Below, piece by piece: positions 17,786-22,090 of a stretch of DNA of 64,000 nucleotides. A program made the translations under genes and the position numbers. Numbering within the stretch: position 1 is the stretch's first letter; every line of letters begins with the position of its first letter. Source of the stretch: Sedimentisphaerales bacterium (GTDB taxonomy: Bacteria; Planctomycetota; Phycisphaerae; Sedimentisphaerales; Anaerobacaceae); assembly GCA_016935195.1 (NCBI GenBank), contig JAFGRL010000190.1, positions 1 through 64,000 on the forward strand. Direction: 5' to 3'. The notes under the pieces were generated by a model. The model saw only the letters and a list, made by a program, of their open reading frames with translations. It was not told the DNA's origin and did no database searches.

Positions 17786-18556
17786 TTATTCTTTCCTTCT
17801 CGCCATCACCGCACTGAGGCCGAGCAATAAGAGTGTGGATGGTTCGGGTATGGCATAAATAAAGCTGTGGCCATCAGAGACGTCACTGTAGTAACCAACA
17901 AGATTGCTGCCGTCAATGCCCTTTATATTGGTGTGATTCGCCCCAGGCACATCATCAAGAATAATCCAACTCCCATTATTATAAATAAAGTTGTGGTAAC
18001 CAGGGTCGTCACTATAGTTGTCATTATAGTAATAACCAACAAGATTGCTGCCGTCAATGCCAACTATCTGTGTGTAATTTGCCCCAGGCTTATCGATGGT
18101 GGTCCAGGTTGTCCCATAATTATAGAGAAAACCGTGGCTACCACCAGAGGCGTCATTGTAATTGCCAACAAGATTACTACCGTCAATGCCAGTTATATAT
18201 GTTCCAGTCGCCCCAGGTGCATCAAGAATAAGCCAGCCTATTCCATTGTAGAGAAAACCGTGGTCACCAGAGGCGTTCCCATAATCACCAACAATATTGA
18301 TGCTGTCAATGTCATATATCCTTGTCCGAGTCGTTGCCTCTGGCGCATCGAGAGTGGTCCAGTTTGTCCCGTCATAGAGAAAACCGTGATAATTACCAGA
18401 GGTGTTTTTGTAGTAACCAACAAGATTGCTACCGTCAATGCCTTTTATAAATGTGTCAGTCGCCCCAGGTTTGTCGATAGTGGTCCAGGTAGCCATTGCG
18501 TAAGCCGTACTGAACAGCACTATGGCCACCGCAAAAACTGATTTACTTCTCATCAC
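17786..18556 (-). CDS. PEP-CTERM sorting-domain protein built of ~45-aa repeats
   Basis: Repeats WTTIDKPGAT..IKGIDGSNLVGYY..GFLYD; C-terminus IPEPSTLLLLGLSAVMARRKE; SD GAGGAGGAAGAG. Confidence 0.85.
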   Translation of the reverse strand: MMRSKSVFAVAIVLFSTAYAMATWTTIDKPGATDTFIKGIDGSNLVGYYKNTSGNYHGFLYDGTNWTTLDAPEATTRTRIYDIDSINIVGDYGNASGDHGFLYNGIGWLILDAPGATGTYITGIDGSNLVGNYNDASGGSHGFLYNYGTTWTTIDKPGANYTQIVGIDGSNLVGYYYNDNYSDDPGYHNFIYNNGSWIILDDVPGANHTNIKGIDGSNLVGYYSDVSDGHSFIYAIPEPSTLLLLGLSAVMARRKE

Positions 18557-18640
18557 TCTTCCTCCTCAAAAAAGTCCCCGCGAGAGCCTACGAAAGATAC
18601 GTAAGCGATGACCCCTGTTGCCGGAAGCACCGGCCTTTTT
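18557..18640 (-). promoter_or_regulatory. Candidate structured 5' leader of the PEP-CTERM gene
   Basis: On the minus transcript: GCCGG-tgctt-CCGGC hairpin (18634..18620) and CUUACG-uaucuuu-CGUAGG hairpin (18605..18587), followed by GGCTCTCGCGGGGAC and the SD. Confidence 0.35.
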
Positions 18641-18784
18641 GTGATCTATACCAGATTTGGGAGGGAAAATCAATTAAAAACTCTCAAGAGCTATAGAGGA
18701 AAAACTTAACAATTTATCAATTATGCAGTAAAATTGCTTATAAGCTAAAATTGATCGGGACGACCGGCTTGCTACCGGCCAAGT

Positions 18785-18853
18785 GGCTTGAGCAGCGGCA
18801 AGGTTTTACACCTGTCTTGCCTGCTGCTTGAGCTGACCCGAAAAGGACAGGTG
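18785..18853 (+). promoter_or_regulatory. Predicted H-type pseudoknot in the leader of the 18857 gene, overlapping its SD
   Basis: 18-bp stem 18785-18802/18816-18834 with one bulged U; loop CACCTGT (18809-18815) complementary to ACAGGTG (18847-18853), which contains the SD 4-6 nt before the ATG. Confidence 0.5.
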
Positions 18854-18856
18854 AAA

Positions 18857-19549
18857 ATGGCCAAATCGGAAAAAACGAACCGTGCACCGATTTCCATTAC
18901 GATAACCAGTGATGGAAAGTTGAAATTTTCATCAAAGACTCCAGAACAGGTCAAGAAGCAAGCTTTCTTTCCTATGTTTCCTTTTAAGCAGGGACAAGAG
19001 ACTGCTAATAGTGTGATGTTTAGCAGTGAATGGCCTCGTGTTTCCCGAAGGATTCCCCTTACGAAAGACCAGTTCGAGATTATAAAGCGTGCGGTTGGCT
19101 CGTATAGAATTGCCCGTATAAAGTCATTTCTTACACAAATGTGTAGTATTTCTGACCCAACAGCTTTATCTTGGGACGACATCATTGCACACTTGGAAAC
19201 TTACTTGGATTTGCAGCAAAAGAAGCAGTTGCAGAAAACAGCCAGCGGTAGTAAAGGAGGGGGAAAACGAAAAAAAACACCACCGCAACTGCTCAAAGAA
19301 ACACGGGAAAGACAAACAGCAAAAGAACTGGCAAAGGAGCCTAACAAAACTGCCGAGGAACTCGGCAAGCTACTGGGATGCCACAAATCAACAGTCGTTC
19401 GGCTAAAAGCGTGGCAGAAAAGAGGAGTTCTGGCTAACCCTAAACCCCCAAATGGCTTTAAGAAACAGCCCAAAGATGATAAGAGTAGAGGAGACATCGA
19501 AGCCATATACGAAAATGAGCCGAACGATGAAGGTGAAAACCCTCAATAA
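18857..19549 (+). CDS. Hypothetical protein with C-terminal HTH-like segment (mobile-element gene)
   Basis: ATG at 18857 with AGGTG SD; TAEELGKLLGCHKSTVVRLKAWQKRG. The track ORF begins at 18788 inside the structured leader. Confidence 0.65.
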   Translation: MAKSEKTNRAPISITITSDGKLKFSSKTPEQVKKQAFFPMFPFKQGQETANSVMFSSEWPRVSRRIPLTKDQFEIIKRAVGSYRIARIKSFLTQMCSISDPTALSWDDIIAHLETYLDLQQKKQLQKTASGSKGGGKRKKTPPQLLKETRERQTAKELAKEPNKTAEELGKLLGCHKSTVVRLKAWQKRGVLANPKPPNGFKKQPKDDKSRGDIEAIYENEPNDEGENPQ

Positions 19550-19692: not shown

Positions 19693-19881
19693 ATGGCCAC
19701 GATAACACATAAGACAAAAGGTCTGACAATTGTTGAGCAGGAATACCTTAAAGTAGTTCGGCTTGAGTTGCGACAGGCAATAAAAGAAGGTGAGCCACAA
19801 CGGGCAATGTCGTTCGCAAAAGAGGCAGCCAGATTGCAAAGGAAAAAACTCGCAAGCAAGGAGGGGCACAATGAGCGATAA
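19693..19881 (+). CDS. Small hypothetical protein
   Basis: MATITHKTKGLTIVEQEYLKVVRLELRQAIKEGEPQRAMSFAKEAARLQRKKLASKEGHNER; overlaps the start of the next gene. Confidence 0.45.
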   Translation: MATITHKTKGLTIVEQEYLKVVRLELRQAIKEGEPQRAMSFAKEAARLQRKKLASKEGHNER

Positions 19882-20122
19882 ACAATCCCCCGAAAAGCTA
19901 AAGATTGAGCCTGCTTTACTTACTATTCCACAGATTTGTGTACTGCTCAACATATCACGGGCAGAGTTTTACCGATTAGATTCGAGCGGCAAGTTCGCTC
20001 CATTGCAAACTGGACTTTGCCGCAAGCGGTTGTATTTGCGGTCTGAAATTGAGGGTTGGATTCGGGCGGGCTGTCCGCACCGAAAAGTTTGGCAGTCTAT
20101 GAAAACTAAATTTGCAACATAA
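19871..20122 (+). CDS. AlpA/excisionase-like HTH protein
   Basis: PALLTIPQICVLLNISRAEFYRLDSSGKFAPLQTGLCRKRLYLRSEIEGWIRAG; GGAGGGGCAC upstream of the ATG. Confidence 0.75.
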   Translation: MSDKQSPEKLKIEPALLTIPQICVLLNISRAEFYRLDSSGKFAPLQTGLCRKRLYLRSEIEGWIRAGCPHRKVWQSMKTKFAT

Positions 20123-20124
20123 AA

Positions 20125-20405
20125 TCTATTTTGACCGTGCCGTATCGGTTTGGCTTGCGGGCAATACGGCGGCACAAGCCAACGGCGTAGTAGATTGGCA
20201 TCCGAAATAAATAAAGACGGCAGACCGAACACCCTATCTGCCGCAAGCTGATTAGGCTTGACTCTATCGGGTTTGGGTAGTCGGGCAGAACGGACGCCCA
20301 AAATGGTGAAACAAATCCGTGCTTAAAGCCCGCCGAAGGCGACGGAGCAGAAGGCATCCTAAATCTTATTAGGGTGCTTCTGCGCCACCTCTGGCTCTGG
20401 AGCAG
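20125..20405. ncRNA. Candidate structured noncoding region
   Basis: No convincing ORF. Inverted repeats TTGGCTTG/CAAGCCAA (20150-20182), GGCAGA/TCTGCC, GGGC/GCCC, and a long stem CAGAAGGCATCCTAA/TTAGGGTGCTTCTG (20348-20382). Confidence 0.35.
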
Positions 20406-20488
20406 GTATGGTAATAAAGATTAAAAAAACAACAAAAAGAAGAAGAGTACTTGACACATGCCAATTATATGTTAAAGTTAGTCAAGTT

Positions 20489-20704
20489 ATGAAATCGACC
20501 ATCAAAATAATTCGAGAATGTATTGAAAAGCAAGGCTTGAGCCGATACCAAATCAGCAAGCGGACGGGAATAGACCAAACTGTGCTATATCGGATTGTTA
20601 GGGGTGGTGATTGTATGATTAGTACAGCAGATAAGTTGTTAAAGCTATTTGGTTATGAAGTTTGCAAAAAGAAAATCACAAAAAAATCGAGGGCAAAGAA
20701 ATGA
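20489..20704 (+). CDS. XRE-family HTH regulator
   Basis: MKSTIKIIRECIEKQGLSRYQISKRTGIDQTVLYRIVRGGDCMISTADKLLKLFGYEV; ATGA overlap with the integrase. Confidence 0.75.
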   Translation: MKSTIKIIRECIEKQGLSRYQISKRTGIDQTVLYRIVRGGDCMISTADKLLKLFGYEVCKKKITKKSRAKK

Positions 20705-22053
20705 GGCTTTTCAAACCAACATATAAGGGCAGGGACGGCAAAAAAAGAAAAACCGCTAAATGGTATTGCGATTTTTCCGACCAGAACCAGCTTAGGCATA
20801 AGATACCGGCCTTTGCTGATAAGCGGTTGTCTGAGGGGCTGGGACGGAATATTGAAGCCATTGTTAATTGCAGGATTGCACGGTTTGAGCCTGATACAAA
20901 ACTTAACCAGTGGATTGAAACTTTGCCGGATAGTTTGTTGAGAAAATTTGTATCTTGGGGCTTAATTGATGGACAGCGGGCAGAGATAACAAAGCCTTTG
21001 ACAGAGCATATAAGCGATTATATTAAAATCCTCGAAGCCAAAGGTAATTCAAAGGACGATATTGTTCGTACCCGAAACAGACTTAAAAGAATAGTTTCTG
21101 ATTGCAGGTTTTATTATTTCAGGGATATTACAAAATCAGCGGTTGAGATTTATTTAGGCAAGATGAAAAAAGACGGTTATAGCAGCACCAGCAGAGGCCA
21201 TTATCTCGGAACTCTTTCAACATTCCTGAACTGGGCAGAGCAAGACCAGAGGATTATCCGTAACCCGATTGCAAAGCTGGGGAAACCCGATAGAGATTCC
21301 GAACCAAAAGGCGTATTAAATCCTGAGCAATTTGTTCACTTAATCAAGACCACATTTGAAAAGAACGTCCTTGTCGGTAGAACTACAGGGCAGGAGCGGG
21401 CAGTTCTTTATGTTTTGGCAGGGACTACAGGGCTAAGACGAAAAGAGTTATTGAACCTTGCTTGGGACGATATCAACCTGTTAGCGGATACTTCCTATGT
21501 ACGAGTAAAGGCTTCTGCCGCCAAAAACGACAAAGAGGCAAAGCAACCCATACCGCCATTTGTAGTACGTCTTTTAACGGCCTTAAAAGCCGCTACAAGG
21601 CCAAAGCTGTCTGACAGGGTCTTTGTATCGTTTGGCAGGTGGATTAATACAGCAGAGCTAATCAGGGCGGATTTAGCGGCAGCAAGCATCGACCCGATAG
21701 ACAAAGACGGCAATGAGATATGCTTTCATTCCTTACGCAACAGCTATATATCTTTCCTTGCCAACAGTAATATTCCCCCAAAGGTTGTTCAGAAATTGGC
21801 AAGACATTCAGACCCCCGATTGACATTTAACACTTATGCCCGAACCTTTGACGAAGCTGAACAAAAGGCTATTAGTTTCTTGCCGAACTGCGGGAATTTT
21901 GTCTTGTCCACCAGCTTGGACAAAATGTGCAGAAAACAAGAGATTCCCATAGACAACCATAGACACAAAAACGGCCAAGGCACGTTACAAACCGCATTCT
22001 TGGCCGATGCACAAATAGCCCCAAGGGGATTCGAACCCCTGTTGCCGGGTTGA
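20701..22053 (+). CDS. Tyrosine-type site-specific integrase
   Basis: TGLRRKELLNLAWDDI, CFHSLRNSYISFLA, LARHSDPRLTFNTYARTF; C-terminus APRGFEPLLPG is encoded by antisense of the tRNA. Confidence 0.9.
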   Translation: MRLFKPTYKGRDGKKRKTAKWYCDFSDQNQLRHKIPAFADKRLSEGLGRNIEAIVNCRIARFEPDTKLNQWIETLPDSLLRKFVSWGLIDGQRAEITKPLTEHISDYIKILEAKGNSKDDIVRTRNRLKRIVSDCRFYYFRDITKSAVEIYLGKMKKDGYSSTSRGHYLGTLSTFLNWAEQDQRIIRNPIAKLGKPDRDSEPKGVLNPEQFVHLIKTTFEKNVLVGRTTGQERAVLYVLAGTTGLRRKELLNLAWDDINLLADTSYVRVKASAAKNDKEAKQPIPPFVVRLLTALKAATRPKLSDRVFVSFGRWINTAELIRADLAAASIDPIDKDGNEICFHSLRNSYISFLANSNIPPKVVQKLARHSDPRLTFNTYARTFDEAEQKAISFLPNCGNFVLSTSLDKMCRKQEIPIDNHRHKNGQGTLQTAFLADAQIAPRGFEPLLPG

Positions 22054-22090
22054 AAACCCGGTGTCCTGGACCTGCCTAGACGATGGGGCC
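22016..22090 (-). tRNA. tRNA-Glu (anticodon TTC)
   Basis: GGCCCCATCGTCTAGGCAGGTCCAGGACACCGGGTTTTCAACCCGGCAACAGGGGTTCGAATCCCCTTGGGGCTA: cloverleaf with anticodon loop TTTTCAA; resembles E. coli tRNA-Glu; CCA not encoded. Confidence 0.9.

Follow-up and report, generated by a model that had tools for sequence, protein, structure and literature searches.

The first gene of a small integrative element in a Sedimentisphaerales bacterium is preceded by a hairpin whose loop could pair with the ribosome-binding site of that gene. Does this complementarity belong to a conserved RNA, and what would such an RNA do? The original prediction, made from the window (the whole 64,000-nucleotide stretch of DNA analyzed here), proposed an H-type pseudoknot and recognized no known class for it. 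The stem that it described, 18785–18802 against 18816–18834 with a bulged U and a few G-U pairs, was confirmed: it has 18 bp and three G-U pairs, and closes a loop at 18803–18815. CACCTGT (18809–18815) does complement ACAGGTG (18847–18853), with the ATG at 18857, and the pairing reaches 8 bp (CACCTGTC/GACAGGTG, 18809–18816 with 18846–18853), with four more T/A pairs possible across a bulge.

Architecture of the Leader RNA

The reported hairpin and its complementarity to the ribosome site form one arm of a larger leader of 107 nt (18753–18859). We predict this leader to be a three-way junction of helices P1, P2, and P3, with a pseudoknot that joins the P3 loop to an arm holding the Shine–Dalgarno (SD) sequence. 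P1 encloses the reported hairpin and P2 (18762–18767 with 18775–18780) flanks it, and relatives show the same arrangement. The nested fold of the window sequence alone is moderately unusual (z = −2.6 and −2.5), so the case for this well-supported fold rests on comparison with relatives. The U run that an intrinsic terminator or attenuator would have after P3 is absent, and a terminator scan of the + strand found none there.

Relatives of the first-gene protein (18857–19549) are few and distant. The leaders of three of them (L005, L012, L016) share an arrangement with the window leader that is not evident from the window alone. Folded one by one, all four gave the same junction: P1 pairs UCGGG with CCCGA, P2 is capped by a 7-nt loop, the linker reads AAG, and P3 is long and variable in sequence. 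A covariance model built from these four leaders recovered about 80 relatives of the RNA in planctomycetes.

Table 1. Features of the leader RNA and of the element that it heads, in window positions
Feature	Position	Strand	Basis
14-nt direct repeat of the tRNA-Glu gene (ACCCCTGTTGCCGG), probable attL	18611..18624	.	also at 22035–22048 inside tRNA-Glu
Terminator-like hairpin ahead of the leader, with CTTTTT after it	18620..18634	+	consensus scan only
Second candidate promoter, TTAACA / TAAAAT	18706 / 18729–18734	+	scan
−10-like TAnnnT box, TAAGCT, at a position enriched across relatives	18741..18746	+	TAnnnT enrichment; scan
P1 5′ strand, UCGGG	18755..18759	+	pairs with 18837–18841 in 4/4 seeds folded separately; 94.8% of helix 1 cells paired
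P2 hairpin, GACCGG-CUUGCUA-CCGGCC (loop 18768–18774)	18762..18780	+	double-sided changes in 6/6 pairs, 81 distinct rows; loop self-complementary at positions 4–5
J2/3 linker, AAG, conserved and unpaired	18781..18783	+	A 0.86, A 0.96, G 0.83 (70 sequences)
P3 5′ strand: reported stem plus U18784, able to pair with G18835	18784..18802	+	folds; covariation; G-U over A-C in P3, 52 to 16
Pseudoknot 5′ arm, CACCUGUC, in the P3 loop	18809..18816	+	native vs swapped pairing, z = 18, 75 sequences
P3 3′ strand	18816..18835	+	coordinates checked; seed folds; covariation
P1 3′ strand, CCCGA	18837..18841	+	seed folds; covariation
Pseudoknot 3′ arm, GACAGGUG, overlapping the SD (AGGUGA)	18846..18853	+	native/swapped test; median 3 nt from arm end to start codon across relatives
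First gene, 230 aa, C-terminal helix-turn-helix	18857..19549	+	ORF; weak HTH_23 match at residues 149–191, below the Pfam cut-off
Excisionase-like HTH_17 protein	19871..20122	+	Pfam E 6e-8; PHROG excisionase
Cro/C1-type regulator	20408..20704	+	HTH_3 E 2e-7
Tyrosine integrase, 3′ end into tRNA-Glu	20701..22053	+	Pfam Phage_integrase E 1e-16
tRNA-Glu(TTC), integration target and right end of the element	22016..22090	-	Rfam tRNA match; 14-nt repeat

Conservation of the Helices and the Pseudoknot

In an alignment of 81 distinct sequences, which was fitted to the model and so leans towards structure, 93.7% of P1–P3 cells are paired compared to 78.9% in shuffled alignments, 16 of the 19 pairs show double-sided changes, and the covariation score is 0.425. 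The score is 0.177 for shuffled alignments, with none of 500 shuffles reaching the observed value, and it drops to 0.09 or less once partners are slid.

The pseudoknot, which the model leaves out, was assessed from the longest complementary run, in each sequence, between the P3 interior and the last 23 nt ahead of the start codon. Native runs average 8.7, against 6.0 for swapped partners (75 sequences, 0 of 10,000 permutations, z = 18). Because the swap control retains the consensus CACCUGUC/GACAGGUG, the excess pairing comes from co-variation. Many relatives have replaced the loop/arm pair entirely, as in CUGGUCCCC/GGGGCCAG, GCACCUUCUGA/UCAGAAGGUGC, GUACUCGC/GCGAGUAC, and CACUCGCC/GGCGAGUG. 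The 3′ arm lies close to the start codon, with a median gap of 3 nt across relatives.

Comparison establishes the predicted fold and pseudoknot, and their place at the start codon. The compensatory changes on which the original prediction had staked itself are seen in both helices, as P3 covariation and as loop/arm co-variation, and they support a real RNA element in which the first gene's ribosome-binding site would be hidden. Of the proposed H-type pseudoknot, the pairing of a hairpin loop with a downstream tail stands across the 75 relatives, but the hairpin is not a stand-alone unit: P1 encloses it, P2 precedes P3, and both of these helices covary. As simple duplex energies that exclude loop and topology costs, the pseudoknot arms of the window give −13.9 kcal/mol versus −12.3 kcal/mol for SD:anti-SD (taking the general bacterial anti-SD, not one read from this genome), and the mean pseudoknot duplex is −13.6 kcal/mol.

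A TAnnnT box begins 9–14 nt upstream of the RNA in 33 of 76 relatives, compared to an average of about 7 of 76 in control windows. This enrichment indicates that transcription probably begins at or just before P1. Both candidate promoters of the window lie upstream of P1, so that a transcript from either one would include all of the RNA. A transcription start downstream of 18802 had been named as contrary evidence; the enrichment and the scan instead place the likely promoter upstream of the whole structure.

Self-Complementary P2 Loops

Among 24 distinct 7-nt P2 loops, a few of them assigned by hand and with relatedness reduced only by counting distinct loops, positions 4 and 5 are complementary in 23 and positions 3 and 6 in 18 (permutation P < 0.0002 each). 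No other pair of positions in these 24 loops is significantly complementary. Six central tetramers occur: AAUU, GUAC, AGCU, CGCG, UGCA, and GAUC. In the window loop, CUUGCUA, only positions 4–5 (the central GC) pair among the central four. Since adjacent bases are unable to pair within one loop, this pattern points to loop–loop pairing between two molecules, and the self-complementarity suggests that the RNAs form kissing dimers.

Distribution of the Leader RNA

The covariance model finds the leader RNA in the host's order (33 of 161 genomes, E ≤ 0.05) and in its class (42 of 397 genomes, E ≤ 0.001); a refined model finds it in a few genomes from further classes of the phylum. When 84,980 named genomes were scanned with a strict pattern, nearly all of the records returned were Planctomycetota, mainly Phycisphaerae and Sedimentisphaerales. 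One pattern match labeled Pirellulales is a true relative by the covariance model, and matches in an Uhrbacteria MAG and a Thermoplasmata MAG were rejected, as the model matches neither. Searches of phage and viral collections found neither first-gene relatives nor the RNA pattern.

Not every match is intact. Four covariance matches (L133, L136, L137, L138), in which loop/arm pairing is absent or poor, and a second match in L080, with the weakest score, were set aside as chance or decayed. Three others (L089, L093, L099) are odd or damaged copies. In L004, L097, and L139, P2/P3 has been lost, yet the genes behind these copies remain open, so the structure can be dispensed with in places. L139 (1582–1648) is a second RNA copy in the window's own genome, on contig C195, from which most of the segment from the P2 loop to P3 is deleted between CCTGCC repeats. 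The gene behind this copy encodes a C-terminal TIR domain that resembles Thoeris ThsB.

Integrative Elements and Their First Genes

In the window, the RNA is followed by the first gene, an excisionase-like gene, a Cro/C1-type gene, and a tyrosine integrase gene that runs into tRNA-Glu. The flank left of 18611 contains no displaced tRNA 3′ end, which makes the attL assignment probable rather than proven. An AlphaFold model of the first-gene product has low overall confidence (pLDDT 63) with a well-scored helical block and the helix-turn-helix (HTH), and a fold search of the PDB with this model returned no match. Between the excisionase-like and Cro-like genes lies a 283-nt noncoding stretch (20125–20407) whose predicted fold is far more stable than that of shuffled sequence (z = −3.3, 0 of 200 shuffles as stable), possibly a second structured RNA or an origin. 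Beside the left end of the element, the minus strand encodes a repeat-rich protein with a PEP-CTERM-like tail (17786–18556) and 97-nt degenerate DNA repeats.

The leader RNA usually heads small tRNA-targeting integrative elements of the order RNA, variable first gene, excisionase, tyrosine integrase. Downstream sequence of at least 5.5 kb is available for 57 relatives. An excisionase-like gene follows the RNA in 40 of them and an integrase of the same family in 32, in every case with the same orientation. The tRNA targets include Glu, Lys, Asn, Cys, Val, Arg, and Asp. This association with integrative elements, repeated across relatives, is again a result of comparison. Other copies sit in mini-elements, or alone before membrane or TIR-domain proteins. 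L065 and L095 are apparent mini-elements consisting of the RNA and a small membrane-protein gene, with tRNA-Glu within 0.5–1.2 kb and no integrase. In L102, L105, L129, and L134, an integrase frame ends 6–11 nt upstream of the RNA, as expected of circular permutation or tandem elements.

The products of the first genes behind the RNA are mostly unrelated, and many have HTH domains. In L079 (4281–5888), the first gene includes a C-terminal domain of RNA polymerase alpha (E 2e-14), cargo that is unusual for mobile elements. In L119 (5109–5999) and L135 (619–1965), first genes with TIR domains (CAP12/Pycsar-type and TIR_2) directly follow the RNA, a possible link to defense. In one genome, L070 (1438–1580) and L071 (5839–5981) are 99% identical over a block that opens 28 nt ahead of the RNA and stops at the start codon; their first genes and flanks differ. 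The conserved unit is the RNA, and the promoter-plus-RNA block looks as if it had been exchanged or converted as a module.

Proposed Mechanism and Alternatives

Our best reading is that the leader RNA is a translational off-switch that has been widely reused by planctomycete elements. The first-gene transcript would start at or just before P1 and fold into the P1/P2/P3 junction, whereupon the P3 loop would pair with the SD-containing segment, leaving about 3 nt between it and the start codon. This pseudoknotted form would shut out ribosomes, so that the first gene is poorly translated by default, and a factor shared by planctomycete hosts, or by these elements, would open or stabilize the fold. 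A point against this reading is the length of P3 (median 54 nt across the whole arm): with a linker of about 4–5 nt after P1, P3 would have to bend back along P1 for its loop to be reached. We consider it likely that the three-way junction and its SD-covering pseudoknot operate in this manner, under a shared factor and not the encoded protein. Translational repression, the switching and its trigger, and dimerization of the leader RNA are what we infer from the arrangement. The combination of a conserved scaffold (P1 sequence and AAG linker) with variable cargo argues for a common factor over the encoded protein. More tentatively, the leader could be a homodimeric switch in which P2 kissing sets the junction and the SD pseudoknot. 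Translation of the first gene would then follow the level of its own transcript, differences among palindromes would prevent cross-pairing of coexisting elements, and the module would be reused before swappable regulators or defense-like effectors.

As an alternative, the junction could bind a metabolite or ion that stabilizes or breaks the pseudoknot. Such a riboswitch would account for the conserved P1 sequence and AAG linker, and SD-sequestering pseudoknots are common riboswitch output forms. Few unpaired nucleotides besides the linker are invariant, however, and hence no classic ligand pocket stands out, the downstream genes lack a common metabolic theme, and Rfam returned no match, weak ones included; we regard this explanation as unlikely. 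Autoregulation, in which the first-gene protein binds its own leader, had been suggested by the original prediction and would suit the many first genes with HTH domains. It now seems improbable, as the proteins encoded behind the RNA are for the most part unrelated, TIR and membrane proteins among them, and the near-identical RNAs of L070 and L071 stand before different genes, which makes the encoded protein an unlikely sensor.

The arms also form inverted repeats close to a promoter and to one end of the element, and could serve at the DNA level as an operator or as integrase/excisionase arm sites. Wobble pairs in the pseudoknot arms, a small sample, are not significantly enriched (GU 6, AC 3), as this explanation would allow. 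In P3, however, G-U pairs outnumber A-C mismatches 52 to 16, and they also do so in P1 and P2, an excess that we read as the mark of selection on RNA. Moreover, the fold has its place at the start codon, and the P2 loop palindrome lies half a base off the stem dyad, which fits RNA hairpins and not a DNA dyad. We therefore give a purely DNA-level role very little weight. A 5′-end stability element, in which the junction and loop-to-tail pseudoknot block 5′-to-3′ decay, appears similarly remote. Its helix order and loop-to-tail pairing recall viral exonuclease-resistant RNAs, and the RNA starts near the predicted 5′ end of the transcript. Those RNAs have a far shorter P3, which makes a tight ring unlikely here. 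The pairing also tracks the ribosome site, which a decay block would not need.

Comparison with Known Systems

At the Rfam 15 gathering threshold, only tRNAs were found in the window and 20 related loci, and a permissive search gave nothing credible for the leader RNA, in agreement with the original prediction, which recognized no known class. A search of the open-access literature found no description of it. One candidate structured RNA of Planctomycetes and Proteobacteria, the Rhodopirellula-1 motif, is listed without an Rfam accession (Weinberg 2010; PMC2864571). An earlier notice of the leader RNA under this name is conceivable.

The leader is of interest as a well-supported structured RNA, matched by no family in Rfam, from a phylum whose RNA biology is little known, and for its ties to small integrative elements and to effectors of the TIR type. 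A switch that stays constant while its cargo is mostly unrelated suggests that these elements share a means of holding the first gene silent until it is needed. The palindromic P2 loops, in turn, make mRNA–mRNA dimerization in bacteria directly testable.

Palindromic kissing loops are found in guanidine-II riboswitches. They also occur in the HIV-1 DIS and the oskar 3′UTR (PMC7357161). All of these share with the P2 hairpin a loop with a self-complementary core, whereas the planctomycete case is a bacterial 5′ leader beside an SD pseudoknot, with at least six palindromes and with dimers suggested by sequence. In viral exonuclease-resistant RNAs, the loop of the third helix of a three-way junction pairs with the tail after P1. 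The leader resembles them in this topology only; its P3 is much longer (median 54 nt), it occurs in another phylum and setting, and its pairing covers a ribosome site. The preQ1, SAM-II, and c-di-GMP-II riboswitches are leaders with SD-sequestering pseudoknots, and as in these, the pseudoknot arm of the planctomycete RNA contains or abuts the SD and would block initiation. In contrast to them, it has a different junction and different conserved bases, heads mobile elements with unrelated cargo, and has a ligand only hypothetically. We conclude that the leader probably works like these SD-sequestering pseudoknots, while matching no family in Rfam.
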